Below are positions 12,185 through 24,737 of a DNA stretch of 64,000 nt, in pieces. This DNA is from a virus. The position numbers and the translations under genes are program-made. The stretch lies in IMG/VR virus record IMGVR_UViG_3300032304_000672, positions 1-64,000 of that record. One strand, written 5' to 3'. The first letter of the stretch is position 1; every line of letters starts with the position of its first letter. Below the pieces are notes generated by a model that did not search any database, was not told where the DNA came from, and saw only the letters and a list, made by a program, of their open reading frames with translations.

Positions 12185-12344
12185 ACCAAATTAGCTTCAT
12201 ACCCTAGATTCCCCCCTCCAATAAACACCTCTCTAATAGCCTCCTAGAGCCTTATTTGGCATATTCTAGAGATGATCTACCATAAAATATACTACTAATT
12301 CTTGATCAATTACTACTGATATATGTATAGTTAGATATACATGT

Positions 12345-12391
12345 AATTGAGCCCTCCCTTTTACTCCACCGTAATCCATTTTGCTCCACAT
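12345..12391 (+). repeat. Degenerate iteron copy
   Basis: CGTAA at 12370 is followed by TTTTGCTCCACAT, similar to the other three iterons, but the AGGG block is AGCC. Confidence 0.4.
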
Positions 12392-12410
12392 AGATCCATA
12401 TGTGTGGCAT

Positions 12411-12460
12411 ATTTGAGGGATTTTGTCAATAGCCTCGTAAATGGCATATTTTGCCCACAT
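12411..12460 (+). repeat. Iteron 1 of the origin region
   Basis: AGGG (12416), 16 nt, CGTAA (12436), 12 nt, GCCCACA (12453). ATTTG precedes AGGG. Confidence 0.75.
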
Positions 12461-12467
12461 TGTCAAG

Positions 12468-12517
12468 GCTTCAGGGGCATTTAATATGTCTCCGTAAACG
12501 GAGAAATTCGCCCACAT
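12468..12517 (+). repeat. Iteron 2 of the origin region
   Basis: AGGG (12473), 16 nt, CGTAA (12493), 12 nt, GCCCACA (12510), the same spacing as iteron 1. Confidence 0.75.
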
Positions 12518-12589
12518 TTTGACAGATATGGATCTCATTATCTGAGATTCTATATATGTTTCTTTAGATTAATATACATTCTTCTAGAA

Positions 12590-12639
12590 ATTTGAGGGAT
12601 TTTTTATAGCTTGCCGTAAAGGGGAAATTTGGCCCACAT
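12590..12639 (+). repeat. Iteron 3 of the origin region
   Basis: AGGG (12595), 16 nt, CGTAA (12615), 12 nt, GCCCACA (12632), the same spacing as iterons 1 and 2. Confidence 0.75.
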
Positions 12640-12640
12640 T

Positions 12641-12685
12641 TTTTCCACAAAAATATCCACAGGCTGTGGATAAACCTGTGGATAA
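12641..12685. promoter_or_regulatory. Cluster of DnaA-box-like 9-mers
   Basis: TTTTCCACA (12641-12649), TATCCACAG (12654-12662) and two copies of CTGTGGATAA (12664-12673, 12676-12685), the reverse complement of TTATCCACAG. These match the bacterial DnaA consensus TTATCCACA in both orientations. Confidence 0.7.
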
Positions 12686-12708: not shown

Positions 12709-13125
12709 TTAGATGATTCCCTGGTTCATATGATTTATATTAGATCCATTATTGGTCTCATGTAGCCAAGAGTATCTATAGTTTTGTTCTTGTGTTTGAG
12801 GAAGGGACTTTACGAATTCCCCCCGTTCTTTTGGAGTGATAGGTAGTTGAACTGATTTAAGGTCATTAGATACCTTTATTTTATCAATCACCTTGTCTAG
12901 ATGATTAGCAATGATTAATCCTTCACAGACTGTGCCTTCATTGGCTACTTCTCGTCTGTATCGTTCCGCCTGCTTTTCTACTATCCACGCCACAACTTCG
13001 ATAATGCGGTCTATGGTGTAGATAGGTTGTTCTGCTAGATACCTGCCTAAAGCAGCAGGGTTGAAGAAATGGTCTTCTACTGAGTTTGCTAGTAGTTCTC
13101 CGATTTGCTGTTCTTTGGTTTTCAT
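12709..13125 (-). CDS. Hypothetical helical protein
   Basis: A 138-residue protein, mostly helical and charged (MKTKEQQIGELLANSVEDHF...). It ends at the origin region and has its own phage-type promoter at 13146-13168 with an AGGCGG ribosome binding site. Proximity to the candidate origin suggests looking at it as a replication accessory protein, but no motif supports this. Confidence 0.65.
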   Translation of the reverse strand: MKTKEQQIGELLANSVEDHFFNPAALGRYLAEQPIYTIDRIIEVVAWIVEKQAERYRREVANEGTVCEGLIIANHLDKVIDKIKVSNDLKSVQLPITPKERGEFVKSLPQTQEQNYRYSWLHETNNGSNINHMNQGII

Positions 13126-13145: not shown

Positions 13146-13168
13146 ATTATAGCAGAAGGGACTGACAA
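13146..13168 (-). promoter_or_regulatory. Phage-type promoter (TTGTCAG-N10-TATAAT)
   Basis: Minus-strand TTGTCA and TATAAT separated by exactly 11 nt; drives the gene ending at 12709. Confidence 0.8.
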
Positions 13169-13191
13169 GCGCCAGCCCCTCCTGTACACAA

Positions 13192-13338
13192 TTACTTCTT
13201 TGGTGTTGGCTTTTCTGCTTCGAACGTCACGCCTTGGCTAGCTGCGTCCTCCAGAGCTTTGTTTGCTGCTGATGAGAAACGACCACGGGCCCCTACAGTA
13301 ATTCCCTTTGACTTTAAATATTCACGCTTTGTTGCCAT
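13192..13338 (-). CDS. Lsr2-like mini DNA-binding protein
   Basis: This 48-residue basic protein reads like only the C-terminal DNA-binding half of actinobacterial Lsr2: REYLKSKGITVGARGRF then SSAANKALEDA. Lsr2 has the same helix, an xRGR minor-groove hook and a second helix, and it silences AT-rich foreign DNA. The oligomerisation half is missing. It could compete with host Lsr2 on the AT-rich phage genome or act as a small regulator. It has its own canonical promoter. Confidence 0.72.
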   Translation of the reverse strand: MATKREYLKSKGITVGARGRFSSAANKALEDAASQGVTFEAEKPTPKK

Positions 13339-13374
13339 TTGATAATCCCCTTTCAAGAGATAGATGTTTTATTT

Positions 13375-13403
13375 ATTATATCGGATACCCACGATTTTGT
13401 AAA
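13375..13403 (-). promoter_or_regulatory. Canonical promoter of the Lsr2-like gene
   Basis: Minus-strand TTTACA (13403-13398), 17-nt spacer, TATAAT (13380-13375). This spacing is the normal sigma-70 type, unlike the neighbouring phage-type promoters. Confidence 0.7.
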
Positions 13404-13442
13404 TACCCCCGTAAGAGCTAAGATCAGCCCCTATGTTCCGCC

Positions 13443-13643
13443 TTAGATATTAAGTTGTAGATCTTCTGATGTATCTTCATCTAAGAATACATCTGTAGCT
13501 TCGATCTCATCATCTGTTGGGATCTCATCCCAATCGGTTGACGGACGAAGGTTCGCAATCTCCGCTGCTTGATATTCGTCGGCAGCGGAAACAATGGTGT
13601 AATAGTTTGTATACTTGGTACCAAAGACTCTATAGATTGGCAA
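13443..13643 (-). CDS. Conserved small acidic protein
   Basis: A 66-residue protein (MPIYRVFGTKYTNYYTIVSA, then a DEYQAAEIA helix and an acidic tail). The start resembles a widespread small phage family with a beta-beta-alpha core. Last gene of the operon running from 16092. Confidence 0.6.
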   Translation of the reverse strand: MPIYRVFGTKYTNYYTIVSAADEYQAAEIANLRPSTDWDEIPTDDEIEATDVFLDEDTSEDLQLNI

Positions 13644-13866
13644 GCATTTCCCTCATTTCCCATTCGGCATATGTACGGACAATAAAGTCCTTATCTAGAT
13701 TATAACAATACAGGACAGCTTTTGTCAAGGAATCCGTCTCATATATTGGCATGTCCATTATGACCTCATTGTCCCCTTTGTCATATACCTCAAAGGTTCT
13801 AATTCCTCCAGGTGAACAATCATATGCAACTTCCAGGATTTCTAAGCTAGGCTCATAATGAGTCAT
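13630..13866 (-). CDS. Hypothetical protein
   Basis: A 78-residue protein starting MTHYEPSLEILEVAYD. I chose this ATG because GAGGGA lies 5-6 nt upstream; longer in-frame starts would overlap the upstream gene deeply. It overlaps both operon neighbours by about 14 bp. Confidence 0.55.
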   Translation of the reverse strand: MTHYEPSLEILEVAYDCSPGGIRTFEVYDKGDNEVIMDMPIYETDSLTKAVLYCYNLDKDFIVRTYAEWEMREMLANL

Positions 13867-14005
13867 TTGTTCCCTCATCCCCAGACATACGATCTTTGAT
13901 AAGTTTGCTAATGATATTATGTGCTTCGATATTTTCTGTTTCAGACCCACCCCACAAAAGCTTTTGGGCTTTGTTTAATTGATCATTGATATAGATATCA
14001 CTCAT
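13853..14005 (-). CDS. Small hypothetical protein
   Basis: A 50-residue helical protein (MSDIYINDQLNKAQKLLWGG...). Its ATG overlaps the stop of the upstream gene, which argues against a longer version. Function unknown. Confidence 0.55.
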   Translation of the reverse strand: MSDIYINDQLNKAQKLLWGGSETENIEAHNIISKLIKDRMSGDEGTNDSL

Positions 14006-14318
14006 CTTCATCTTCTTCCTCCTCTTCGTCTTCTTCAAACATTGTATCCACAATGTACTCACGATTCATCATCCATTCAAGTACGTCATCGTTGTGCTGT
14101 TCCGCCCCGTACTCCAGAGAGAAGCCCTGGCCCGCCTCTACAGCCTCACAGAGGTGGTCCCACATCTCATCTATGGTGCAGTTCTGCTTGTAGGTCTCAT
14201 CCTCAAAGATGTTGTTAATGGTAGACCAAGTCCATAGCCAAACTAAGGATAGACCTAGGTCCGTTGTATCTAGAATCTTTAAACATTCATTTAGTTTATC
14301 TTTATCTTCAGGCTTCAT
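13998..14318 (-). CDS. Acidic hypothetical protein
   Basis: A 106-residue acidic, Trp-containing protein ending in a run of Asp and Glu (residues 94-106). The start MKPEDKDKLNEC overlaps the upstream stop. The poly-acidic tail could bind basic proteins. Confidence 0.55.
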   Translation of the reverse strand: MKPEDKDKLNECLKILDTTDLGLSLVWLWTWSTINNIFEDETYKQNCTIDEMWDHLCEAVEAGQGFSLEYGAEQHNDDVLEWMMNREYIVDTMFEEDEEEEEDEDE

Positions 14319-14574
14319 CCCGTGCTCCTTTCGCAAAAGCAATGTCATATGTCAATTTGTACAAATCTCCTAGAGCGTCAAGGTACCCTTCTAGGTGTAA
14401 GCGGTCCACGGTTTGGTCATACTGTTCGTCATCTTGATTTGTATATTCAGATAACTTCTTTTCTGTTTCAACCATTAGGACCTTTAGTTCCCCGTGCATT
14501 ATGTCAGCCCCGTCCATTCCGATGTTTATCATACGTTGCAAATGGGGCGGGAGCCCAATGTCTTCATTATTCAT
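14308..14574 (-). CDS. Hypothetical helical protein
   Basis: An 88-residue helical protein (LPPHLQRMINIG, then EKKLSEYTNQ). A phage-type promoter lies 27 nt upstream, inside the preceding gene, so part of the operon can be expressed separately. Confidence 0.6.
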   Translation of the reverse strand: MNNEDIGLPPHLQRMINIGMDGADIMHGELKVLMVETEKKLSEYTNQDDEQYDQTVDRLHLEGYLDALGDLYKLTYDIAFAKGARDEA

Positions 14575-14764
14575 TAATATACCTTTCGTTAGAGTTATTC
14601 ATTATATCAGTAGCCACTGACAATAAATGTTCGGTTGCCATAATTTGTCCCTGGATATTAATCTTAGATTGAACATTGTAATCACCCTCTAAGTCCTGGT
14701 TAAGACTAATTAGATGTAACTTCATATACTCCAGGAAGTATGATGATTTAGTTTGTGTAGTCAA
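14567..14764 (-). CDS. Hypothetical helical protein
   Basis: A 65-residue, mostly helical protein (YFLEYMKLHLISLNQDLEGD). Its coding sequence contains the phage-type promoter of the next gene. Overlaps neighbours on both sides. Confidence 0.55.
   Translation of the reverse strand: MTTQTKSSYFLEYMKLHLISLNQDLEGDYNVQSKINIQGQIMATEHLLSVATDIMNNSNERYINE
14601..14623 (-). promoter_or_regulatory. Phage-type promoter inside a gene
   Basis: Minus-strand TTGTCAG and TATAAT with 11-nt spacing; reads toward the gene 14308-14574. Confidence 0.75.
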
Positions 14765-14930
14765 AGTAACCCTCCGCCCACAGACCTTGCAAGAAACTAA
14801 CAGCGTCTTCCAAGTCTTTCCTCAAAGGCTCCTTGTTCATTAAATCGGACGGGGTCCTAAGATAAAAAAGCTTTGAATCGTGTACAGCATTAATCATTCT
14901 ATTTAGATCAGACTCAGTGTAACCTAGCAT
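14748..14930 (-). CDS. Hypothetical protein
   Basis: A 60-residue protein (MLGYTESDLNRMINAVHDSK, later FLQGLWAEGYFDY) in the seven-gene overlapping operon. No family recognised. Confidence 0.55.
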   Translation of the reverse strand: MLGYTESDLNRMINAVHDSKLFYLRTPSDLMNKEPLRKDLEDAVSFLQGLWAEGYFDYTN

Positions 14931-15109
14931 AGGTCATACTCCATATCCCAAGATACATCAGGCCAATTTAAATCATATCTTGCGCTATCAACTTCACCTA
15001 AATCGTTTAGGTGTAGATTAATTTTCTCGTGTGCTTCTTTCTCATTATTGGCCATTACTGCACCTTCTAATTTAATTACAAATCCATACTTATTCAAAGT
15101 AGTCCTCAT
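14924..15109 (-). CDS. Hypothetical protein
   Basis: A 61-residue protein with beta-alpha-beta character (KYGFVIKLEGAVMANNEKEA), similar in style to the small protein at 2248-2391. Overlaps neighbours by a few bases. Confidence 0.55.
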   Translation of the reverse strand: MRTTLNKYGFVIKLEGAVMANNEKEAHEKINLHLNDLGEVDSARYDLNWPDVSWDMEYDLC

Positions 15110-15308
15110 CTCCTTCTGTTAGGTTATAGAATTTATTAAATTCAGATTGAATAAACTCATCTCCTGACATTTCAGCAAATTGTTTATCTGCATAATATTG
15201 CCCTTCGTCAAGATTACTATTAATCCAATCTTCAAGTAATTGTTCTGCTATATCTTGGTAGCAAGCGTCAATTACCATTTGATTTACATCTTCTAAGAAA
15301 CTAGCCAT
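15090..15308 (-). CDS. Acidic hypothetical protein
   Basis: A 72-residue acidic helical protein (MASFLEDVNQMVIDACYQDI) that starts within the end of the Api92-like gene. Function unknown. Confidence 0.55.
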   Translation of the reverse strand: MASFLEDVNQMVIDACYQDIAEQLLEDWINSNLDEGQYYADKQFAEMSGDEFIQSEFNKFYNLTEGDEDYFE

Positions 15309-16092
15309 TTAGCGCTTCCTCCTGTGTGTAGGTTTTCAAAGGTAATAATACACTATGGGTCTGACATTCTTTCATAGCCACCTCATCCTGCCAAGAGCCT
15401 TCATTACATTCTGAGCAGAATTCACCGCAGTCATCTTCACAATAACTTAATGTATCGTAAGACTGGCAAGCATAGCAACGATTCTCATATTCAACTAATT
15501 CTTTTACTTCACCACGGACAATCTCATATTCCCCACCCCAACCTGTTTCTTCCTCAAACTCTAATGTAAGCAGGCAGTTAGGAACAAGATTACTTAGTTT
15601 AGTTAAGATAGTTACAGCAGGTGACCAAGCCGTCTCATACTTATAGACAACCCAGTTGTCATCACCTTCTGATTTATATTCAAGCAATTCCGTATTTGGA
15701 TATTTATCACCGTCACGGACGGCTACATCCCATTTAGTTCCCCAGTTGGAGTTATTCCACGAATACCAATCCTTCTGTGTCTTAGCAAACTCAACAGATT
15801 TGCGGAACCAATCAGGGTCATTCTGAATATCTATACCACCACGAGAAGGCTGGCAGGCATACTCTTCATCAGTAATACCTTCATCTTTATATGAGTGAAT
15901 ATTGAAGAAAGCAAAGACAGGATTAGAATAACTTACCTGTTCAATTTTGGTGGGGAATCCTGAAAGACTAATATCACCCATACCATAAGTCTCTTGTGCT
16001 AATGTAAATGGACTATTCAGTCTATCCTTGATATAATCAACTTCTGACTTTGGTCCTTGAATTGTTAACGTATTGTAACACCAATTTGGCAT
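15301..16092 (-). CDS. Api92-like (DUF1281/YubB) ferredoxin-fold protein
   Basis: The 263-residue protein starts MPNWCYNTLTIQGPKSEVDY and contains NSNWGTKWDV, the two hallmarks of the Api92-like/YubB family found on phages and plasmids (function unknown). Residues 205-238 add a Cys-rich zinc-ribbon-like end (CYACQSYD, CEDDCGEFCSEC). It is first gene of the seven-gene operon down to 13443, behind a phage-type promoter. Confidence 0.85.
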   Translation of the reverse strand: MPNWCYNTLTIQGPKSEVDYIKDRLNSPFTLAQETYGMGDISLSGFPTKIEQVSYSNPVFAFFNIHSYKDEGITDEEYACQPSRGGIDIQNDPDWFRKSVEFAKTQKDWYSWNNSNWGTKWDVAVRDGDKYPNTELLEYKSEGDDNWVVYKYETAWSPAVTILTKLSNLVPNCLLTLEFEEETGWGGEYEIVRGEVKELVEYENRCYACQSYDTLSYCEDDCGEFCSECNEGSWQDEVAMKECQTHSVLLPLKTYTQEEALNG

Positions 16093-16117
16093 TTTATTTC
16101 CTTTCGCTAATAACCCA

Positions 16118-16140
16118 ATTATATACTAGACCACTGACAT
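16118..16140 (-). promoter_or_regulatory. Phage-type promoter
   Basis: Minus-strand ATGTCAGT and TATAAT with 11-nt spacing; leader carries CGAAAGGAAATAAA before ATG 16092. Confidence 0.85.
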
Positions 16141-16185
16141 TTGGAATACCTTTTGGGTGTGTTCCACACCACATTTTCCAAGCTA

Positions 16186-16264
16186 TGTGGTCAAGATCAC
16201 AAAATTTCAGGGGAATTATATTGACTTCCGTAAAAGAGATATGATACCCTCACCTGTTGCGGGC
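16186..16264 (-). promoter_or_regulatory. Composite upstream element E1
   Basis: Plus-strand reading: TGTGG-N6-TCACA (16186-16201), AGGG (16209), 16 nt, CGTAA (16229), then TGCGGGC (16258; one base longer than in most copies). It lies upstream of the promoter at 16118. The remainder of the gap 16093-16441 holds only this element, the promoter and hairpins. Confidence 0.75.
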
Positions 16265-16272
16265 AAACAAAA

Positions 16273-16296
16273 ATCCCCCAGGGCAAGCTGGGGGAT
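16273..16296. terminator. Hairpin terminator
   Basis: ATCCCCCAG pairs perfectly with CTGGGGGAT across a 6-nt loop; on the minus strand TTTTTGTTTG follows. A second hairpin GGTCC/GGACC lies near 16402-16415, closer to the end of the gene at 16442. Confidence 0.75.
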
Positions 16297-16441
16297 CAGA
16301 TAAGTAAGGCTGCTAGCAGAACGAAAGGAATTTAGTAAACGCTGCTTTATTTAACGACTTGGGGAAAACCCTAGTAGCCGCACCATACTTTAATGAAAAG
16401 GTCCGCTAGGACCTATTCATATTATAGCATATCTTAGTTAA

Positions 16442-16846
16442 CTAAACTGGGACAACAACATCTGCGTACTTCTCAACGAAGTTACTCAGGTCCATAGTAA
16501 AGAGCGCTTCATTGCTCATCCCATTAACCTTGTTATCCAAATCATTCCTTGGCGCCTCTTCGTGAAGACTGAATGTCTGCTGCTGGAAATCGACAATAGC
16601 AATCTTGTGCTCGTTATCGCCAATCTCATTTACGTGCAAGCCCCATCCAGTTTCCATATTCCACTGGTCCGCAATCATATTACTGATTGTGATACGTGTT
16701 GCATATGAAGGGTCATTCCAACGAGGACGTGCTTTAAACACTGCCTCTGCTAGATTCGCTAGCATTTTATGGCCTGCCCAGTGACCGTATAGTACAATTG
16801 TATTTCCGTTAGGTTGGACGAATCCAAAGTTTGCTCTATCTCCCAT
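16442..16846 (-). CDS. Conserved phage protein (MGDRANF family)
   Basis: A 134-residue protein starting MGDRANFGFVQPNG and continuing IVLYGHWAG, an opening shared by many phage and some plasmid proteins of unknown function. It is complete and ends VVVPV. Last gene of the operon from 17414, overlapping the upstream stop by one base. Confidence 0.8.
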   Translation of the reverse strand: MGDRANFGFVQPNGNTIVLYGHWAGHKMLANLAEAVFKARPRWNDPSYATRITISNMIADQWNMETGWGLHVNEIGDNEHKIAIVDFQQQTFSLHEEAPRNDLDNKVNGMSNEALFTMDLSNFVEKYADVVVPV

Positions 16847-17055
16847 TACATTTCCGCCTTTTCTAGTTGAGGTACTTCTTCGGTTTTATTCAATTCTATC
16901 ATTTCAAAGGAGACCTTGTCAAGGGCCTCTTTGTTTTTATTATAGTGGTGGTGGCAAAAGAAAAGCTCACCATCTACTAGTTTAATTAGATACATAGCCT
17001 GAGCTGTACCGCATTGATCACAGCCGATCCATCTAGTTAGATCCTCAGAGGTCAT
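16846..17055 (-). CDS. DUF7455-like zinc protein
   Basis: The 69-residue protein has CDQCGTAQAMYLIKL then GELFFCHHHYNKNK, the C-x2-C...C-x-H-H layout of the actinobacterial DUF7455 family (known from Streptomyces and actinophages, function unknown). I chose ATG 17055, which overlaps the end of the upstream 51-residue gene, over a longer in-frame start. Confidence 0.75.
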   Translation of the reverse strand: MTSEDLTRWIGCDQCGTAQAMYLIKLVDGELFFCHHHYNKNKEALDKVSFEMIELNKTEEVPQLEKAEM

Positions 17056-17200
17056 AGTCAACGGTTCCAAATTCAATACGGTCTGCAATGTCATCGTATA
17101 CTTGGCCATCATCCTCAGACTCAGCCCACACACGAATGTTTGCGACAATTACTTCACGAGCAAATTTGACGCCGTCTTCAAAACCATCTTGGTAATCCAT
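17045..17200 (-). CDS. Conserved 51-residue phage protein
   Basis: The protein reads MDYQDGFEDGVKFAREVIVA... and ends DRIEFGTVDYDL. I recall this short family in several actinophages; the role is unknown. AAGGAGATAAA precedes ATG. It overlaps the DUF7455-like gene by 11 bp. Confidence 0.7.
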   Translation of the reverse strand: MDYQDGFEDGVKFAREVIVANIRVWAESEDDGQVYDDIADRIEFGTVDYDL

Positions 17201-17201
17201 T

Positions 17202-17414
17202 TTATCTCCTTGTATATCCTGTCGGTTCGTAGTCTGATGTATAACTCTCTGTGAGATTATACTTATCTCGAATCCGACTTACTTTCTCAATGCTACCAGT
17301 TCCGATGTTGAATGTCAACGGTGATAATGCAGTTGGGTCCAGCCCAATCATCTGAGCATCCCAATAGGCCATCTCCATAGATAGCCTATCGGGAGCAGTC
17401 AACTCAAAATACAT
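17202..17414 (-). CDS. Conserved small phage protein
   Basis: A 70-residue protein (MYFELTAPDRLSMEMAYWDA, later SRIRDKYNLTESY). The tail is basic. It overlaps the upstream gene by one base and belongs to the same operon. Function unknown. Confidence 0.6.
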   Translation of the reverse strand: MYFELTAPDRLSMEMAYWDAQMIGLDPTALSPLTFNIGTGSIEKVSRIRDKYNLTESYTSDYEPTGYTRR

Positions 17415-17869
17415 TATGCTTCCCTCACATTACAAACTTCTTGGTCACCAATTTCAATGTTACCATTGTTTGATTCAGCAAAGATAGCATCTGTAATTTC
17501 TGACTCAAGGTCTAAGTCATAATCATTTTCAAGAATGTTGTAAGAATATGTTCCGCTAACTTCGATAGATGCGGTCCACTCAACTTCCTTAATTAATTCA
17601 ATTGATAGCGCTTCAGCAATTTCACGCAATGTGTCTTGGTCTTGTGAGTCTGCATATGCCTCGCAGATAATTTCCTTAACTGCATCAATCTTGCCATTTA
17701 GAACGCCGTTAGTCTTCTGTGCTTGACGGGCATTGTGCAGGTCCCATTCAATTGATGTAACCTTATCAGTTGCATATTCTGCATCTGAATATCCACGGAT
17801 AACTTTATAGGTTACCAATAGATTAGGGTTATATGTATCAGGCACCGTTACTGTGTTTGTCTCTTCCAT
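17414..17869 (-). CDS. Acidic hypothetical protein, short form
   Basis: The 151-residue product MEETNTVTVPDTYN... is acidic with an alternating beta/helix pattern. ATG 17869 has a strong site (GGAAGGAAATAAA) and a dedicated phage-type promoter at 17898-17920. The same frame continues upstream without a stop to ATG 18049, so a longer form can also exist. The main product is more likely the short one because of the promoter and ribosome site. Confidence 0.7.
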   Translation of the reverse strand: MEETNTVTVPDTYNPNLLVTYKVIRGYSDAEYATDKVTSIEWDLHNARQAQKTNGVLNGKIDAVKEIICEAYADSQDQDTLREIAEALSIELIKEVEWTASIEVSGTYSYNILENDYDLDLESEITDAIFAESNNGNIEIGDQEVCNVREA

Positions 17870-18049
17870 TTTATTTCCTTCCGTTTCTGTTGGTTGTATT
17901 GTAGCATCTTCGACTGACAATAACACTGTACTATTGTTACACGGGCATGTGATATTAGTCACAGGCTGAAATGCATCGGGACATGTAAATTCAATTAAAG
18001 AATCACATGTACTGCACACGTATGTATATTTACTCCAGGTTTGTGTCAT
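17414..18049 (-). CDS. Long form of the same frame with N-terminal zinc ribbon
   Basis: From ATG 18049 the frame adds 60 residues with a Cys4 zinc ribbon: VCSTCDS and TCPD, then TCPCNN. A second phage-type promoter at 18056-18078 ends 6 nt before this ATG, so this mRNA would be leaderless. Alternatively the 60-residue part was once a separate gene whose stop was lost. The spacer and internal promoter are translated as VEDATIQPTETEGNK. Confidence 0.5.
   Translation of the reverse strand: MTQTWSKYTYVCSTCDSLIEFTCPDAFQPVTNITCPCNNSTVLLSVEDATIQPTETEGNKMEETNTVTVPDTYNPNLLVTYKVIRGYSDAEYATDKVTSIEWDLHNARQAQKTNGVLNGKIDAVKEIICEAYADSQDQDTLREIAEALSIELIKEVEWTASIEVSGTYSYNILENDYDLDLESEITDAIFAESNNGNIEIGDQEVCNVREA
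17898..17920 (-). promoter_or_regulatory. Phage-type promoter inside the long frame
   Basis: Minus-strand TTGTCAGT and TACAAT with 11-nt spacing. Confidence 0.8.
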
Positions 18050-18055
18050 GCGAGT

Positions 18056-18078
18056 ATTGTACAGGACCCCACTGACAT
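18056..18078 (-). promoter_or_regulatory. Phage-type promoter, leaderless
   Basis: Minus-strand ATGTCAGT and TACAAT with 11-nt spacing; 6 nt from -10 to ATG 18049. Confidence 0.8.
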
Positions 18079-18087
18079 TTACAATAG

Positions 18088-18147
18088 AATTCAGGGCTTT
18101 TTTTATGTGATCCGTAACACAGAAATCCTGCCTTCAATGTTGCGGGC
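18088..18147 (-). promoter_or_regulatory. Composite upstream element E2
   Basis: Plus-strand reading: GAATTC, AGGG (18093), 16 nt, CGTAA (18113), 23 nt, TGCGGGC (18141). It lacks the Crp-like palindrome and lies directly upstream of the promoter at 18056. Confidence 0.75.
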
Positions 18148-18175
18148 GTCTCATATATTGAGAATCAAATCTTAG

Positions 18176-18249
18176 CGATCCATATCGGACTTGAACCGAC
18201 GGCCTCTACCGTGACAGGGTAGCGCTCTAACCAACTGAGCTAATGGACC
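18176..18249 (-). tRNA. tRNA-Asp (GTC)
   Basis: The minus strand folds into a full cloverleaf: acceptor GGTCCAT with ATGGATC (one G-U pair), anticodon loop CTGTCAC giving GTC, and T-arm with GGTTCAAGTCC. No CCA is encoded. It sits alone, 9 kb from the other tRNAs, between two phage-type units. Confidence 0.92.
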
Positions 18250-18290
18250 TAATGGTGAGCAGTTTTAAATCTTGCTCAGGATTTTTTTAT

Positions 18291-19295
18291 TTAGAAAGTT
18301 GCAACCATTCGATACAACTTATTTTTTTCTGCGGTTAGAATTGGGTCAAACCCTGATGCACCCGCCATAAGAGTTTCACCATTGCCACGACCTGAACGAT
18401 AGTAATCAAGGCGCTCAGTTAGTGCATTGAACGCACCCCACTTTGTTCCCTTGATTGTAGCGTTAGTTGGTGAGTTGTGATACAAATCGTCAATGAGAAC
18501 AACTTTGTTTTCCCATTTCTTCAATGAACCCTTCAAATCCTTGTCAGGCTTAGGATAGATTGTCTGAATCAACTTAGAGAATTCAGCATCGGTGATTGCT
18601 TGTGAGTAAAGTGCCTTTGCTTGAACTTCGAATTCATCAAAGTATCCAAGAGCAAGCCCAAGAGTTTCACGAGCAACTTGAATGCGACCTTCAACAGATT
18701 GCGTGTGGCGAATCTTGAAAGATTGCTTAGCATTCTTCATTGCAAGGTTTAGCGTGTTTTGGCATACAACACGAACAGGTGTAACGGCTGCTTGAACAGC
18801 AACAGAACCATCGTGTGAAGTCCAGACAATGAGATAAAGTTTTGTCTCATCGTTGGCGCCTTGTGGGTCAAGAACCATTGTGCGTGGAATGTCCACAGTT
18901 CCGAACACAACTTTGCCCTTCTTTAGTGAGCCAGCAGATTCCCAACGGCAATCAGCATTGGCATCGTGAATTGCATCAGCGAATGCAAACAGTTCTTCAT
19001 TCTGAACTGGCTTGTAACGTTTTCCAACAGTTGCGAGAACATCAGTTCCGCCGTTGAATGGATTGTCACGAATGACAAGAGATGCTTCTGAAACATCATT
19101 CCAAGATTCTGAAATGTGGTCAGTTAGTGGAGACAAGCGAACATTCCAATTTGCTAACTTTGCTTCTTCAAGCATTGTTGCAGTTGTAACTTCCTCATCT
19201 TTTGTGAAGATACGATTTGCAAGGTTGTGCCAAGCAGGTGCGCCACGAAGAGCAAATGCAACTTCGCCGTTTTCGACTTCGAGATTGTGAGCCAT
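18291..19295 (-). CDS. DUF932 / phage-plasmid-like protein
   Basis: The 334-residue protein has the DUF932 layout: GAPAWHNLANRIF near the start, VGKRYKPVQNEELF, and VTPVRVVCQNTLNLAM in the middle. The family is common on phages and plasmids and its role is unknown. It is complete, has a phage-type promoter and is monocistronic. Codon choice seems richer in G/C-ending codons than its tiny neighbours. Confidence 0.9.
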   Translation of the reverse strand: MAHNLEVENGEVAFALRGAPAWHNLANRIFTKDEEVTTATMLEEAKLANWNVRLSPLTDHISESWNDVSEASLVIRDNPFNGGTDVLATVGKRYKPVQNEELFAFADAIHDANADCRWESAGSLKKGKVVFGTVDIPRTMVLDPQGANDETKLYLIVWTSHDGSVAVQAAVTPVRVVCQNTLNLAMKNAKQSFKIRHTQSVEGRIQVARETLGLALGYFDEFEVQAKALYSQAITDAEFSKLIQTIYPKPDKDLKGSLKKWENKVVLIDDLYHNSPTNATIKGTKWGAFNALTERLDYYRSGRGNGETLMAGASGFDPILTAEKNKLYRMVATF

Positions 19296-19325
19296 TTATT
19301 TCCTTTCGATTAGTTGTTGATTGCA

Positions 19326-19348
19326 ATTATAACAGGTGGCACTGACAT
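19326..19348 (-). promoter_or_regulatory. Phage-type promoter of DUF932 gene
   Basis: Minus-strand ATGTCAGT and TATAAT with 11-nt spacing. Here a TAGACA also sits 17 nt from the -10 and could act as a normal -35. Confidence 0.85.
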
Positions 19349-19385
19349 TGTCTAGATTAGTTAGTCATTTGTCCGAATTGTCTGG

Positions 19386-19463
19386 GGTGATCATTATCAC
19401 AAATTTTTGGGGGTTTTCCACAGGTAGTCGTAAGGCTGTGGATAACCCCGCAGCTCTGCGGGC
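19386..19463 (-). promoter_or_regulatory. Composite upstream element E3
   Basis: Plus-strand reading: GGTGA-N6-TCACA (19386-19401), GGGG (19409), CGTAA (19429), TGCGGGC (19457). TTTTCCACAG (19414-19423) and CTGTGGATAA (19436-19445) form an inverted DnaA-box-like pair around CGTAA. Confidence 0.78.
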
Positions 19464-19475
19464 AGCTGGGGAAAT

Positions 19476-19499
19476 AGGGCGGGAATAAGATCCCGCCCT
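19476..19499. terminator. Hairpin terminator
   Basis: AGGGCGGGA pairs perfectly with TCCCGCCCT across 6 nt, just after the gene at 19506-19745. Confidence 0.75.
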
Positions 19500-19505
19500 A
19501 AGTCT

Positions 19506-19745
19506 TTAGATTAGTTTAGTTAATTCAGTTTTCTTAGGAAGAACGTCCATTGGTAAAAACAAAGCAGTTGTTTTCTTTTTCTTTATGTTGTCATAAACAA
19601 ACGCTTTAATGTTTCCTTGAAATCTGCGTAGATTAGAAAATACCATTTCAGTTAAGTATTCTTTATCTACACCTTGCTCAGAGTAAAGAGTTAAATCGTT
19701 AGCCTTTACTTCATCATAGATTTCAATTCTATAACGATTTTTCAT
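19506..19745 (-). CDS. Hypothetical protein
   Basis: A 79-residue basic protein (MKNRYRIEIYDEVKANDLTL, later NIKKKKTTALFLPMD). It has a normally spaced promoter at 19773-19802 rather than the phage type. Function unknown. Confidence 0.6.
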   Translation of the reverse strand: MKNRYRIEIYDEVKANDLTLYSEQGVDKEYLTEMVFSNLRRFQGNIKAFVYDNIKKKKTTALFLPMDVLPKKTELTKLI

Positions 19746-19772
19746 TTTGTTCCTTTGTTAGTAGGGATACGA

Positions 19773-19802
19773 ATTATAGCATTGGGACGTATAGTTTGTC
19801 TA
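19773..19802 (-). promoter_or_regulatory. Canonical-spacing promoter
   Basis: Minus-strand TAGACA, 18-nt spacer, TATAAT (19778-19773). Confidence 0.6.
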
Positions 19803-19890
19803 GCCCCGTAGGGTTGAGCAGTTTTGCGACTTACTCAGGTCGTTTGGGTTTAGGTGTCTAGACTTTGTGTGCTAACCCCCCAAAACCTAT

Positions 19891-20307
19891 TTAGAGATAC
19901 TTAGCAATCTGCTTCATTGTAGAAGCATTTACTGTTTCCTCATCTGTCATTTTGAGAATTGTTAGGGCATTTGTAATGTCCTCTTTCATCTCACGATAAC
20001 TGTGCTGATGGATTTGCTCAAAATCCTTTTCAGGTTCAGCAGGGAAGTTGCCTTCCTTTGTGATAATGTCAAAATCAACATTGAGAGTGTTGTTCCATTG
20101 ACGATAGTTTGTGCGAAGGTTCTCAGCCTTTGAGAAGTTAGCAATAGCCCACTTACCAATTTCCTTTTTCCACGCTTCTACTGCTTTCTGAAACTTTGCT
20201 TCTTTTTCTGATTGTGAAGCATAGTCTTTCTCTAGTGTTGCTAGACGAGTTTCTAGTGCCTTGATTACTTTGGTAGTTGCTACCTTTACTGTGATTTGTC
20301 TTGACAT
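19891..20307 (-). CDS. Hypothetical coiled-coil protein
   Basis: A 138-residue protein starting MSRQITVKVATTKVIKALET, with a long charged coiled coil (residues 14-55) and a C-terminal helix ending STMKQIAKYL. I chose ATG 20307, directly behind the CGAAAGGGAA site, rather than an in-frame ATG that would place the promoter inside the gene. Function unknown. Confidence 0.65.
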   Translation of the reverse strand: MSRQITVKVATTKVIKALETRLATLEKDYASQSEKEAKFQKAVEAWKKEIGKWAIANFSKAENLRTNYRQWNNTLNVDFDIITKEGNFPAEPEKDFEQIHQHSYREMKEDITNALTILKMTDEETVNASTMKQIAKYL

Positions 20308-20338
20308 TTTTTCCCTTTCGTTTAGTTTGTTTGGTTGT

Positions 20339-20361
20339 ATTGTATCAGGTGCTACTGACAT
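20339..20361 (-). promoter_or_regulatory. Phage-type promoter
   Basis: Minus-strand ATGTCAGT and TACAAT with 11-nt spacing. A TCCACC/GGTGGA hairpin follows at 20363-20378. Confidence 0.8.
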
Positions 20362-20439
20362 TTCCACCCGAAGGTGGAGAGTTCTTACTTACGACATTGG
20401 ACTAGAACACTCTCTAAACTGTCCCTGTTTCGATTTTAT

Positions 20440-20595
20440 TTAGTTGTTAGGTGCGCTAGTCCAGCGTTCCTTGCCATTTACATCAAGCAGGATACGATTT
20501 GTTCCGCTAGGGTGATTATCAACCGCCTTGATAACTCCTGTGATACCGCTTGTTGTTGTTGTGTAGGTCTGACCTACTTCTAGTGTTGTTGTCAT
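20440..20595 (-). CDS. Conserved small beta-rich protein
   Basis: A 51-residue protein MTTTLEVGQTYTTTTSGITG... ending GKERWTSAPNN, a pattern of an SH3-like beta barrel. I chose the ATG behind CGAAAGGAAAC; a longer frame would include the promoter. Function unknown. Confidence 0.65.
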   Translation of the reverse strand: MTTTLEVGQTYTTTTSGITGVIKAVDNHPSGTNRILLDVNGKERWTSAPNN

Positions 20596-20620
20596 TTTGT
20601 TTCCTTTCGCTAGGGTTGTT

Positions 20621-20643
20621 ATTATACAGGGTGGGTCTGACAT
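20621..20643 (-). promoter_or_regulatory. Phage-type promoter
   Basis: Minus-strand ATGTCAG and TATAAT with 11-nt spacing. Confidence 0.82.
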
Positions 20644-20678
20644 TTTCCACCCCAATCTTATTATTTGAGATGATAAGC

Positions 20679-20696
20679 GTGTGAGTAATCTCACAC
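20679..20696. promoter_or_regulatory. Crp-like palindrome or terminator
   Basis: CGTGTGAGTAATCTCACACG is a perfect palindrome with arms around TGTGA-N6-TCACA. It sits both upstream of the promoter at 20621 and just after the gene at 20711, so it may be an operator, a hairpin terminator, or both. Confidence 0.55.
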
Positions 20697-20710
20697 GCCT
20701 ATCTTGATCC

Positions 20711-20980
20711 CTAGTCCTCGTATTGAGGGAGCCACGCTTCTAGGTGGTGAGCATCTACTATTGCAGACGCAGGGCAGGAAGTCTGACCTCGCCAAGTGAT
20801 ACCTTCAGGAAGATTAATCTCTCGACTATACTCCTCATCATAGAACGCATCAATAGCGTCTATGCAAGGTTGCACCATTGAGACGGGAACGGGTGGGTAA
20901 TGATTACCTTGTAAGTGATAGGCAAGTCCTGCCTCTAGTCCTAATTCTTCTTCTAGTGCTAACGCTGTTGTGTATCCCAT
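20711..20980 (-). CDS. Hypothetical protein
   Basis: An 89-residue acidic protein starting MGYTTALALEEELGLEAGLA, later PEGITWRGQTSCPASA. The start overlaps the upstream stop in TAATG, so the longer in-frame start was not used. Function unknown. Confidence 0.62.
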   Translation of the reverse strand: MGYTTALALEEELGLEAGLAYHLQGNHYPPVPVSMVQPCIDAIDAFYDEEYSREINLPEGITWRGQTSCPASAIVDAHHLEAWLPQYED

Positions 20981-21204
20981 TAGATAGTTTCCTTTACTGT
21001 TAATTCTGCCCAAGTGTTATTTTCATTTGCTACTGTTAGTGTGTTAGACATAGCAAGAGCGTTAATTGTTGCATCCTTACACATTTGCTGAATTGCAGTT
21101 TCATCAAGAGCAATTAGCGCAGGCAATAAGTTTGCAGGGATTTTATCCAAGTCAATAATTGCCTCGAATACTACTGTGTGTGGAACTTTCATTAGGTTAG
21201 ACAT
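20980..21204 (-). CDS. Hypothetical protein
   Basis: A 74-residue protein (MSNLMKVPHTVVFEAIIDLD, then a helical middle and TWAELTVKETI). First gene of a two-gene unit with a phage-type promoter and CGAAAGGTAAC site. A second ATG four codons later is also possible. Confidence 0.62.
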   Translation of the reverse strand: MSNLMKVPHTVVFEAIIDLDKIPANLLPALIALDETAIQQMCKDATINALAMSNTLTVANENNTWAELTVKETI

Positions 21205-21233
21205 TTGTTACCTTTCGTTGTTGGAATAATGGT

Positions 21234-21256
21234 ATTTTACACTAAGCCACTGACAT
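21234..21256 (-). promoter_or_regulatory. Phage-type promoter
   Basis: Minus-strand ATGTCAGT and TAAAAT with 11-nt spacing. Confidence 0.8.
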
Positions 21257-21288
21257 TACCTAATCCATTATGGGCGTGTCGCAGCTTT

Positions 21289-21366
21289 TGTGAGATTAAT
21301 CACAAAATTTCAGGGTTATCCACAACTAGTCCGTAAGCCTGTGGATAAACCCGCAGTATTGCGGGC
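21289..21366 (-). promoter_or_regulatory. Composite upstream element E4
   Basis: The most complete copy. Plus-strand reading: TGTGA-N6-TCACA (21289-21304), AGGG (21312), CGTAA (21332), TGCGGGC (21360), with inverted TTATCCACAA (21316-21325) and CTGTGGATAA (21339-21348) flanking CGTAA. Confidence 0.82.
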
Positions 21367-21369
21367 CCT

Positions 21370-21483
21370 TTACTCTTCTTCGGACCAGATATCAGGATCC
21401 TTTTCTTTTAAATATTCTAGTGCAGCTTTTCTCTGATCATCAGTTCCCATTACCGTGGCCATTAATGCATTGAAGTATTCCAT
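21370..21483 (-). CDS. Tiny acidic protein
   Basis: A 37-residue protein (MEYFNALMATVMGTDDQRKA... ending DIWSEEE). AAGGAGAAATAAA precedes ATG and it follows the GP88-like gene in the same unit. Function unknown. Confidence 0.55.
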   Translation of the reverse strand: MEYFNALMATVMGTDDQRKAALEYLKEKDPDIWSEEE

Positions 21484-21495
21484 TTTTATTTCTCC

Positions 21496-22245
21496 TTATT
21501 TTTTAGTTGCGCTAAATCGAATGTCTGCTTTACCGTAAACACATAATCCACAAGATACACAAGCAGAACCAGCATTGCTAATTAGTGGAATTGATTTCAT
21601 ATTCTCAGGACACTTAGCGCCAGGCTTGCCCGTCAATTCTTTCATTGTGCTTTCGGTTACGGCGAATGTCTTCCCTAAGTATGCAAGGCGAATACCTTCA
21701 TTTGCTTTTAGTTCGTGACCGATTTCTTTATTATCATCGTCGGTAGAATAGTAAAGAGATAGGTTAGATACATCCTTAAGAATAAGCGCTGCAGACTTTA
21801 CACGTGTGTAAACCCAGAATTGAACATCGGTGTGCTCATTGATTACATTCTTCCAGGCATAAGTATAGAAATCATTAAAGAAATCCCCGTCCCAGTGGAT
21901 ACGGAATAACTTAGGAGCGTCTTTCTTATCACAATCAGATTTAAATTCAATAATCATTTCATTTAGCAATTGATACATTGTTTCCATATCAGCATTGCGT
22001 AGCAATTCCCAATTGTGTAGAAGATTAGTTTTTACTCCCTTGAAGAGTTTTTCCAATTTTCCTGCGTAGCAAACACTCTCACAAATACTAGTGGCACCAG
22101 GGCACGAGTAATCCTTTCCAGCGGGGAGACCGAACGTGTTAGCAATTGCGGCTTGCTTTCCATTTTTTGTGACAAGGTTAGCCACCTTTCTATCATTAGA
22201 ACGTTTTAGTTTCATAGGCGTAATTATAGCGGTTAGGTCCGACAT
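21496..22245 (-). CDS. GP88-domain protein with Cys clusters
   Basis: The 249-residue protein matches the layout I know as phage gene product 88 (GP88): FGLPAGKDYSCPG, then CYAGKLEKLFKGV, LFRIHWDGDFFN and FWVYTRVK. Cys residues lie in two groups, CPGATSICESVC and CPENMK plus CVSCGLC, which suggests an iron-sulfur or zinc site. The role of the family is unknown. ATG 22245 sits one base after the upstream stop and is preferred to a longer frame. Confidence 0.8.
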   Translation of the reverse strand: MSDLTAIITPMKLKRSNDRKVANLVTKNGKQAAIANTFGLPAGKDYSCPGATSICESVCYAGKLEKLFKGVKTNLLHNWELLRNADMETMYQLLNEMIIEFKSDCDKKDAPKLFRIHWDGDFFNDFYTYAWKNVINEHTDVQFWVYTRVKSAALILKDVSNLSLYYSTDDDNKEIGHELKANEGIRLAYLGKTFAVTESTMKELTGKPGAKCPENMKSIPLISNAGSACVSCGLCVYGKADIRFSATKK

Positions 22246-22246
22246 A

Positions 22247-22456
22247 TTAGTAATCTTCATCCATACCAAAACCAGCGGAAGCAAGAGCATCGGAATCAGC
22301 CCAGCCAGTTAATTCATAGAATTCCATTTCTTCAGCATCATAGCATTCAGCGCAGATATAGTCATCACCATAGATTTCATATTCTTCAATTGAATCGAAA
22401 GTTTCTTGAGCACCACAAATTTCATAGTTCAAGCAAGCGACAGTAAATAGTTCCAT
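22247..22456 (-). CDS. Acidic zinc-ribbon protein
   Basis: A 69-residue, very acidic protein with two Cys pairs (CLNYEIC and CAEC) and an aromatic tail. It is first gene of the GP88 unit. Function unknown. Confidence 0.62.
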   Translation of the reverse strand: MELFTVACLNYEICGAQETFDSIEEYEIYGDDYICAECYDAEEMEFYELTGWADSDALASAGFGMDEDY

Positions 22457-22486
22457 TATGGACCTCTTTCGTTAGTAGATAGTGGA

Positions 22487-22509
22487 ATTATAGCAGACTA
22501 GACTGACAT
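22487..22509 (-). promoter_or_regulatory. Phage-type promoter of GP88 unit
   Basis: Minus-strand ATGTCAGT and TATAAT with 11-nt spacing, preceded by an A-tract. Confidence 0.85.
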
Positions 22510-22524
22510 TTTTTGCAACTCGCT

Positions 22525-22588
22525 CAAAATTCTAGGGTGTTTTAGATCACACCCGTAACGACACGCCCGACTCCGCAGCTCTGCGGGC
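22525..22588 (-). promoter_or_regulatory. Composite upstream element E5
   Basis: Plus-strand reading: AGGG (22534), CGTAA (22554), TGCGGGC (22582), exact standard spacing. A weak Crp-like site, GGTGT-N6-TCACA (22536-22551), is shifted inside the N16. Confidence 0.75.
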
Positions 22589-22620
22589 ATCCCGCTTGTT
22601 TGTCAAGCGGGGCACACCAT

Positions 22621-22818
22621 TTATTTAACGCTAACCTTTTTCTTTTTTATTAGCGCTTTAATTTGTCTTTCTGTTACTCGTGTTCGTTCTGTTGAATACT
22701 TATAAATTGTTCCCGCCTTCTTTGCTTCCTTTACATAGATGCGGTCAAACTCTGCACGATGCTTTTTAATTAACTGCTTTACTGCTTCGTTTCTAATTGC
22801 TGTTGCTGGTGGTGTCAT
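22621..22818 (-). CDS. Basic hypothetical protein
   Basis: A 65-residue, strongly basic helical protein (AVKQLIKKHRAEFDRIYVKE, ending IKKKKVSVK) that may bind nucleic acid. Last gene of the operon from 23485. Function unknown. Confidence 0.6.
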   Translation of the reverse strand: MTPPATAIRNEAVKQLIKKHRAEFDRIYVKEAKKAGTIYKYSTERTRVTERQIKALIKKKKVSVK

Positions 22819-22820
22819 TT

Positions 22821-22955
22821 TTATTCCCTTTCGTTTTTGTTTTTGTGTTTTGTTTTGCGTGTGTATTTCTTTTTATTCCTAACAGGTTGCGCCGCATTAC
22901 TGCGACGCAATTCCTGAATGCGTTTTACCTTATCAAGAACGGAACTGCGGAACAT
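22821..22955 (-). CDS. Small basic protein
   Basis: A 44-residue protein, MFRSSVLDKVKRIQELRRSN then a Lys/Arg/Asn-rich tail. It overlaps the upstream gene by 23 bp and its stop is 2 bp from the next ATG. Likely nucleic-acid binding by charge only. Confidence 0.5.
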   Translation of the reverse strand: MFRSSVLDKVKRIQELRRSNAAQPVRNKKKYTRKTKHKNKNERE

Positions 22956-23121
22956 TATACCCACTCGCTTCGTGAAATCGTTTTACATCAAATCGCTCAT
23001 TATCTTTTGCGAACATCTCCGCAAAATCATTTACCATTTTAGAAAATACAGCAGGGTGAGTTTTATTGCTGACATACTTTAGAATTTCTGCCGTTGCGAT
23101 GTAATCTTTTCTAGTCATCAT
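22933..23121 (-). CDS. Hypothetical protein
   Basis: A 62-residue helical protein (MMTRKDYIATAEILKYVSNK, later FDVKRFHEASGY). I recognise the style of a common small phage protein (TRKDY...A..L) without function. Overlaps neighbours. Confidence 0.65.
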   Translation of the reverse strand: MMTRKDYIATAEILKYVSNKTHPAVFSKMVNDFAEMFAKDNERFDVKRFHEASGYNVPQFRS

Positions 23122-23321
23122 TTTACTGCCACCATTCCGCTACGATAGAAAACTTTTGTATAGCATTTGCCTGCTGGCGTGTAGAGATTAACTGTAGAGT
23201 ATTCGTTAGCCATTCCCCAGTCGGTGAATAAGAAAAAGTTTTCCCACGCACCAAATTCGCTTTCGTATTCTGCTGACCAATGCGGAGCATTTGAGTCATA
23301 GGCGCAAGTTAGTTTATACAT
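23118..23321 (-). CDS. Hypothetical protein
   Basis: A 67-residue aromatic protein (MYKLTCAYDSNAPHWSAEYE..., later WGMANEYSTVNLY). ATG 23321 overlaps the upstream stop in TAATG and is preferred to a start five codons earlier. Confidence 0.6.
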   Translation of the reverse strand: MYKLTCAYDSNAPHWSAEYESEFGAWENFFLFTDWGMANEYSTVNLYTPAGKCYTKVFYRSGMVAVK

Positions 23322-23485
23322 TATCCATTTACCCAATCTACTGTTAATTCATCTGCTACATCTGCGATACAATCGCAAGGCTCGCAATCATAATTATTTT
23401 CATTTCCCCAAAATACAAATCCTGCGCCACCGCATTCATCACAATTCGCTGCGATTATTTCTATGTATTCTTTCATTTTAGCCAT
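23321..23485 (-). CDS. DnaJ-type zinc-ribbon mini-protein
   Basis: A 54-residue protein with CDECGGAGF and later CEPCDC, the CxxCGGxG pattern of DnaJ-like zinc fingers. It opens the operon behind the phage-type promoter at 23518. It could bind unfolded protein or just be a zinc mini-protein. Confidence 0.6.
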   Translation of the reverse strand: MAKMKEYIEIIAANCDECGGAGFVFWGNENNYDCEPCDCIADVADELTVDWVNG

Positions 23486-23517
23486 TTAGGTTTTCCCTTT
23501 CGTTTGTTTGTTTAGTT

Positions 23518-23540
23518 ATTGTATCAGGTAGCACTGACAA
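23518..23540 (-). promoter_or_regulatory. Phage-type promoter
   Basis: Minus-strand TTGTCAGT and TACAAT with 11-nt spacing. Confidence 0.82.
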
Positions 23541-23541
23541 A

Positions 23542-23664
23542 TTAGATAGCGCCCTCTTGAAATAATCCAATTTCAAGAGTTAGCATTTCATCGGGTGTTG
23601 CTTCGGATAAATCTACCCAGCCAGCACCCTCGTTGTCCATTCGGAAAATTTCGATGTATCCCAT
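23542..23664 (-). CDS. Small acidic protein
   Basis: A 40-residue protein, MGYIEIFRMDNEGAGWVDLS then EATPDEML. It follows the gene 23667-23873 in the same unit; its stop is one base from the next promoter. Function unknown. Confidence 0.5.
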   Translation of the reverse strand: MGYIEIFRMDNEGAGWVDLSEATPDEMLTLEIGLFQEGAI

Positions 23665-23666
23665 TA

Positions 23667-23873
23667 TTATTCACCAACCTTTACTGCGATTGTTGCGAAT
23701 TTATTTCGCAGACCGCCAGCACGAACCTCGATTAGATAGGCTTCAGTTTTTTCGCCATACCAAATTTCTGGGCGGTGTTCCGCTGAAACGATTTCGCCAG
23801 AAAAATGGCGATTTCGTGAGCGATAGTTTTTCCCTACAAGTAGGCTTTCGATTGTGTATAGTTTGGTAGCCAT
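23667..23873 (-). CDS. Hypothetical beta-rich protein
   Basis: A 68-residue protein (MATKLYTIESLLVGKNYRSR, later RHFSGEIVSAEHRPEIWYGE) with beta character. It is behind a phage-type promoter. Function unknown. Confidence 0.6.
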   Translation of the reverse strand: MATKLYTIESLLVGKNYRSRNRHFSGEIVSAEHRPEIWYGEKTEAYLIEVRAGGLRNKFATIAVKVGE

Positions 23874-23908
23874 TGGCAGACCTTCTTTCGTTTGTTGTTA
23901 TGTATGGA

Positions 23909-23931
23909 ATTATACACGAACGGACTGACAT
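23909..23931 (-). promoter_or_regulatory. Phage-type promoter
   Basis: Minus-strand ATGTCAGT and TATAAT with 11-nt spacing. Confidence 0.85.
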
Positions 23932-23978
23932 TTTCACATTACTAGCCAGTAAATCCAAATAGTGAGACGCTCAAGCCG

Positions 23979-23994
23979 TGTGATACTAATCACA
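23979..23994. promoter_or_regulatory. Crp/GlxR-like palindrome
   Basis: TGTGA-TACTAA-TCACA, a perfect match to the half-site pair, about 80 nt upstream of the predicted start of the promoter at 23909. Confidence 0.7.
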
Positions 23995-24033
23995 TAAAAA
24001 TGTCCGATTTGTCTGTCAAATCGACACGCCGTA

Positions 24034-24094
24034 GAATTCAGGGAATTTTATAACAAATCCGTAACGACACGCCCGACCCCGTGCCTTTGCGGGC
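24034..24094 (-). promoter_or_regulatory. Composite upstream element E6
   Basis: Plus-strand reading: GAATTC, AGGG (24040), CGTAA (24060), TGCGGGC (24088), standard spacing. It is next to two hairpin repeats that end in CGACACGCCG (near 24005-24031 and 24098-24122). Confidence 0.75.
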
Positions 24095-24127
24095 CAGCTT
24101 GAGTTTGTCAAGCCGACACGCCGTTAG

Positions 24128-24223
24128 TTATTCAAAATCTTCAAATATTTTTTCTAGTTGAAGAATTTGCTCATCGGTAAGATGATCTAATTCGATTGCG
24201 TGTTCGAATCCATAAAATTCCAT
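24128..24223 (-). CDS. Tiny acidic protein
   Basis: A 31-residue protein, MEFYGFEHAIELDHLTDEQI..., last gene of a three-gene unit. AGGAAAAATAAAA precedes ATG. Function unknown. Confidence 0.48.
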   Translation of the reverse strand: MEFYGFEHAIELDHLTDEQILQLEKIFEDFE

Positions 24224-24225
24224 TT

Positions 24226-24357
24226 TTATTTTTCCTCTTCTTCTAAATTAAAAGTGTTTTCTAAAACGGAATTTGCTTTAGTTAAAGCGGATAACGCATT
24301 CGCAAGACTTTCCTTGCGTTGTGTTTCAACGTGATTTTTAAATTCTTCTAAATTCAT
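24226..24357 (-). CDS. Small helical protein
   Basis: A 43-residue helical acidic protein, MNLEEFKNHVETQRKESLAN..., overlapping the upstream stop in TAATG. Function unknown. Confidence 0.5.
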   Translation of the reverse strand: MNLEEFKNHVETQRKESLANALSALTKANSVLENTFNLEEEEK

Positions 24358-24527
24358 TAGTTAGACTCCTTATCTAAACAGTTAATACAATTACAATTTT
24401 TACTAGAGAATAAAAACTTTAACAACTCTTTACGAGTGTAAGTATCTAAACCATAAGAGGATTTTACTCCGCCGTTATGGTAATCGTGAACGATAGTAGA
24501 GAATAGAGTTTCATTTAGTGTAGTCAT
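24357..24527 (-). CDS. Small protein with Cys knuckle
   Basis: A 56-residue protein with SSYGLDTYTRKELLKFLF and then CNCINC near the end. First gene of its unit behind a phage-type promoter. Function unknown. Confidence 0.55.
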   Translation of the reverse strand: MTTLNETLFSTIVHDYHNGGVKSSYGLDTYTRKELLKFLFSSKNCNCINCLDKESN

Positions 24528-24580
24528 TTGAGACCACCTTTCTTTTAACGATTAAAACCTTATTTAATCTTGATACTAGT

Positions 24581-24603: not shown

Positions 24604-24640
24604 TTTGACCCCTTTTTCGGGCGTGTCGGAAAACTATTTT

Positions 24641-24737
24641 TGTGATTTAGGTCATGTGGATAACTTACGCTCAAATTTTGGGGGATTTCCACACCTGTGC
24701 ATAAAGCTGTGGATAACGCCCGCAAAAGACTGCGGGC
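24641..24737 (-). promoter_or_regulatory. Composite upstream element E7, variant
   Basis: Plus-strand reading: TGTGA-N6-TCATG (24641-24656), a DnaA-like GTGGATAA (24656-24663), GGGG (24680), CATAA in place of CGTAA (24700), TGCGGGC (24731, 3 nt longer). ATTTCCACAC (24685-24694) and CTGTGGATAA (24707-24716) form the inverted pair. Confidence 0.65.

Follow-up and report, generated by a model that had tools for sequence, protein, structure and literature searches.

A candidate iteron-type replication origin that shares its repeat motif with promoter-linked gene spacers in an uncultured phage

Architecture of the locus

The window considered here is the 64-kb stretch (positions 1–64,000) of the 103,695-bp IMG/VR record IMGVR_UViG_3300032304_000672, hereafter the study phage. 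The genes between 1 and 12184 are read rightward, and those between 12709 and 29112 mainly leftward, so that the two blocks converge on a noncoding site that contains a group of direct repeats (Table 1). These repeats share the core AGGG-N16-CGTAA, which is present in eight exact copies in the window, against 0.16 expected from shuffled sequences, and in no further exact copy elsewhere in the whole record. Three of the eight lie at the convergence site, at 12416, 12473, and 12595, and the other five in gene spacers.

Table 1. Features of the candidate origin and of the gene spacers that carry the same motif (window coordinates).
Feature	Coordinates	Strand	Remarks
Unstable AT-rich stretch, possible unwinding element	12280..12345	.	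left of the iterons; top 0.2% of window near 12308
Candidate origin iteron O1	12416..12459	+	box A AGGG, box B CGTAA (12436), box C CCCACA (12454)
Candidate origin iteron O2	12473..12516	+	three-box motif match
Candidate origin iteron O3	12595..12638	+	70 bp ahead of DnaA-box pair
DnaA-type box cluster	12641..12685	.	TTTTCCACA (12641), ATATCCACA (12653), TGTGGATAA twice (12665, 12677), the two 12 bp apart
First minus-strand ORF beside the site	12709..13125	-	138 aa, no assigned function
Spacer element	16209..16264	+	minus-strand promoter-like TGTCAGT at 16139, before ORF 15301-16092
Spacer element	18093..18147	+	promoter-like TGTCAGT at 18077, before ORF 17414-18049
Spacer element, GGGG variant	19409..19463	+	DnaA-type boxes flank CGTAA; promoter-like site 19347 before DUF932 gene 18291-19295
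Spacer element	21312..21366	+	TTATCCACA and TGTGGATAA flank CGTAA; promoter-like site 21255
Spacer element	22534..22588	+	promoter-like site 22508
Spacer element	24040..24094	+	promoter-like site 23930
Diverged spacer element (GGGG, CATAA)	24680..24737	+	with DnaA-type boxes; promoter-like site 24602

The three clustered copies, read as AGGG-N16-CGTAA-N12-GCCCACA, are exact, have the same internal spacing, and lie 57 and 122 bp apart, as given in a preliminary description of this DNA. The interpretation of these distances as about one and two units of 60 was not borne out by the relatives, in which adjacent copies are separated by 47–50, 56–57, 122, 133, 156–158, 168, or 178 bp. Helical phasing of the iterons was likewise rejected, given that these spacing classes do not have one common phase. 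A degenerate iteron proposed at 12350 has AGCC in place of AGGG, lacks the CCC box, and goes undetected at up to two mismatches, and is not retained here. An extra three-box match with one mismatch is found outside the main cluster, at 27982–28022.

The direct repeats, DnaA boxes, and AT-rich DNA of theta origins of the iteron/DnaA-box type all have counterparts at this site. The repeats are represented by the three exact copies on the plus strand, the strand on which all eight cores of the window are found. The DnaA-type boxes form a cluster at 12641–12685, which had been overlooked in the preliminary description, and in related contigs the distance from the last iteron to the DnaA-box pair stays within 69–77 bp across 29 distinct arrays. 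The AT-rich component is represented by a predicted stability minimum at 12308, with a comparable predicted AT-rich dip approximately 350 bp ahead of the boxes in 28 loci, and a second unstable stretch is found at about 12540–12590. Given these features, and the conservation of the noncoding locus in the relatives, the region near 12.5 kb resembles a replication origin, in support of the preliminary reading.

The same motif in the gene spacers

The preliminary description had also reported that the core is common to the iterons and to seven spacer elements, and this was recovered as five exact and two diverged spacer copies, with one core mismatch at 19409 and two at 24680. The spacer copies had been thought to differ from the iterons in their right half, although the CCC of box C begins at +38 from the AGGG in both classes, which means that the right half is common to the two. 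Among the exact-core copies of the relatives, neither set of which was chosen for the presence of this CCC, it is found at +38 in 51 of the 51 copies near a DnaA-box pair and in 57 of the 75 elsewhere. The spacer copies contain an extra box, TGCGGGC (or TGGGGGC), at about +48. An interpretation of the spacer elements as hairpins or RNA structures, assessed by visual inspection, was not adopted.

All seven spacer elements are followed, 16–110 bp downstream, by a TGTCAGT..TANNNT promoter-like site on the minus strand. The window contains 19 such sites on the minus strand and none on the plus strand, and 17 of these lie within 13–26 kb, where the class TGTC(A/G)G-N-TANNNT extends across 13167–25870. 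Seven of the 17 bear an element, and the other ten do not, a point against the mechanism proposed below. The window also contains ten CRP-like TGTGA-N6-TCACA sites, against 2.8 expected (for example, at 16186, 19386, 21289, and 23979), several of which sit between a spacer element and its promoter.

The two types of site also meet within single elements. In a search of the related contigs with a variable gap, the inverted DnaA-box pair was found approximately once at the locus and, in most contigs, once more in a spacer element, where the two boxes flank CGTAA.

Conservation of the locus in related phages

The terminase and the DUF932 protein of the study phage resemble those of the Stanwilliamsviridae phages of Streptomyces (up to 63% and about 51%, respectively), and these relatives suggest that the host is an actinobacterium. 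Repeats of TCGTAAA on one strand, near DnaA-type boxes, were found in all six of the related Streptomyces phages examined. Five of these are assigned to the Stanwilliamsviridae, and the sixth, Riptide, has a record with no family label. NootNoot, Riptide, MulchMansion, and MindFlayer each have 5–7 of these repeats less than 1 kb from the boxes, while Annadreamy and BillNye each have two bipartite copies near their own boxes. The bipartite count was matched in 0–8 of 500 shuffles per 2-kb region, with the count of four in NootNoot including one overlapping double. The core is concentrated in this region in 16 long related contigs, three of which have a lone match elsewhere. Five palindromes similar to GTTGAA-NN-TTCAAC lie between the iterons and the DnaA-type boxes of Annadreamy, at 12846–13107 (L096 coordinates). 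In genome coordinates, the locus is placed at about 118.4–118.9 kb in Annadreamy and about 120.2–121 kb in NootNoot.

The order of the components varies between subfamilies, with the array preceding the boxes in Annadreamy, BillNye, and the study phage, and the boxes preceding an array that opens the terminal repeat in NootNoot and Riptide. Both this variation and the position beside the genome end in the latter two count against an origin. The satellites MulchRoom and MiniFlayer, which have no primase genes (PMC10690885), were predicted to bear the origin signal of their helper, although the array is absent from both, and this also counts against an origin. The convergence of the genes and the local maximum of the cumulative GC skew at the site are atypical of an origin and more usual for a terminus, and the skew, which had been proposed as a check on the origin, was unhelpful in this respect.

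Candidate factors at the origin and the spacers

The iterons and the spacer elements share one rigidly spaced motif, as would be required if a single protein bound both. This is supported by the genome of Annadreamy, where TCTGGG-N12-CATCGTAA occurs exactly four times in 125.7 kb, twice at the locus and twice in nearby spacers. Its left box and spacing are unlike those of the study phage, but within Annadreamy the copies at the origin agree with those in the spacers, which indicates that both classes of copy changed together. A co-evolving phage protein would yield this pattern, which strengthens the case for one factor encoded by the phage, and the near constancy of the DnaA-type boxes across the group is what binding by a conserved host protein would predict.

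A protein of 160 aa, similar to HTH_17/MerR, is a candidate for the iteron binder. Its gene lies close to those for the DnaB helicase and primase in the study phage, Annadreamy (where the protein is gp49), Braelyn, and Weasels2. It matches 127 Streptomyces and 9 Rhodococcus phage records, while its HTH_17 match scores below the Pfam cut-off, its structure model is poor (mean pLDDT of 53.8), and no relative was found among the PDB sequences. A diverged version is present in the Rhodococcus phage Weasels2, where no such repeat cluster was found in the genome parts examined, which counts against this candidate. No initiator of the Rep family was found among the proteins scanned.

Proposed mechanism

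The identity of the motif, its fixed spacing, its orientation on one strand, its conservation, and its linkage to both DnaA-type boxes and promoter-like sites suggest that the region at 12.28–12.69 kb is the replication origin of the phage, of the iteron/DnaA type known from plasmids, and that the protein recognizing the iterons has further binding sites ahead of seven promoters (probability of roughly 0.6). In this process, a protein encoded by the phage would bind the oriented three-box iterons (TTTCAGGG..TTT, CGTAA, and CCCnCA), and DnaA would bind the TTATCCACA-type cluster. This DnaA is presumed to be that of the host, given that no DnaA C-terminal domain (PF08299) was found in four phage genomes searched. 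The AT-rich DNA adjoining the boxes would then open, allowing the DnaB-like helicase and primase of the phage to load. The iteron-binding protein would bind the identical motif upstream of the seven minus-strand promoters, and its level could thus set both replication and the expression of the gene block.

A broader version of this reading, put forward tentatively and with considerable doubt, is that the locus is the origin of the whole phage group, that the initiator acts as a transcription factor for an entire regulon, and that host DnaA and this initiator jointly time replication and the expression of the adjoining block. In this version, such joint timing would follow from the presence of identical three-box sites both at the origin and upstream of many promoters, with DnaA boxes built around the CGTAA core in some of them.

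Alternative explanations

The locus may instead be a genome terminus, where the repeats would serve packaging in a region recognized and cleaved by the terminase at the boundary of a long direct terminal repeat. The ends of the BE1 phages, mapped from read starts (PMC5764925), favor this possibility, as does NootNoot, in which the terminal repeat starts at 120300, less than 100 bp from the DnaA-type boxes, and is opened by the CGTAAA array, with a similar arrangement in Riptide. In Annadreamy and BillNye, however, the array and boxes are 5–6 kb from the starts of the terminal repeats (124938 and 124823), so that the array goes with the boxes and not with the end, and the locus is not simply a terminus. 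We also know of no packaging role for either DnaA-type boxes or spacer copies linked to promoters, and a terminus is considered unlikely overall. Among the long contigs checked in the clade of the study phage, two self-overlap by 123–127 bp, and a third (L088/L105) closes with 3,269 bp that exactly repeat its beginning, which makes its unique length shorter than recorded. Collapsed assemblies hide the boundary of a terminal repeat in this clade.

It is also improbable that all the copies are purely transcriptional sites, bound by a repressor or activator of the phage, with those at 12.4 kb blocking or insulating the converging units. The single orientation of the seven copies upstream of promoter-like sites would fit such a role, as would the position of the 12.4-kb copies between converging gene blocks, but no promoter of this class was found within 12.2–12.7 kb. 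A transcriptional role would also leave the DnaA-type cluster at its fixed distance unexplained, together with the conservation of the locus in Annadreamy and BillNye, where the arrangement of the flanking genes differs. Binding by a protein that bridges, partitions, or condenses DNA, similar to Lsr2 or ParB, rather than by an initiator, is very unlikely. A minus-strand ORF of 48 aa beside the locus (13192–13338) is similar to Lsr2 over its DNA-binding portion only (PHROG 6269, E of 5e-8), and the annotations of Riptide and MindFlayer include ParB-like proteins. Lsr2, however, prefers AT-rich DNA, in contrast with the three boxes, rigid spacing, and sequence-specific site observed here, and no ParA was found among the proteins scanned.

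Comparison with known systems

A search of a literature library recovered no paper in which an origin is described for phages of this family. The origin proposed here is a single candidate locus, conserved from uncultured to cultured Streptomyces phages, and is thus directly testable in the latter. If one protein does act at both the origin and the promoters, this would be a clear phage case of the coupling of genome copying to expression through shared DNA sites.

Repeated spacer motifs of approximately 50 bp that are tied to promoters are also known from the Gordonia phage Vardy, although its intergenic motif itself contains the -10 hexamer, and no link to an origin is reported there (PMC9671010). 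The ends of the cluster BE1 Streptomyces phages, with terminal repeats of ~11 kb, have a syntenic position between converging blocks and the same CGTAAA repeats, whereas in Annadreamy and BillNye the array and the ends occupy separate positions. The stoperators of the cluster A mycobacteriophages are similar in being repeated, asymmetric spacer sites with one orientation relative to transcription, but the elements of the study phage precede promoters and are, in addition, arrayed together with DnaA-type boxes. Identity with the stoperators was rejected, given that their consensus, GGTGGMTGTCAAG, has one match at up to two mismatches against 1.83 expected, and is not enriched.

The iteron/DnaA-box origins of P1 oriR, pSC101, and RK2 share with this locus direct repeats on one strand, DnaA boxes at a fixed distance, unstable AT-rich DNA, and the recurrence of the initiator sites as operators. 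In contrast with these systems, no gene for a Rep-type initiator was found in the study phage, and its elements are few, widely spaced, and approximately 45 bp long, with three boxes, and are found upstream of seven promoters rather than at one rep operator.
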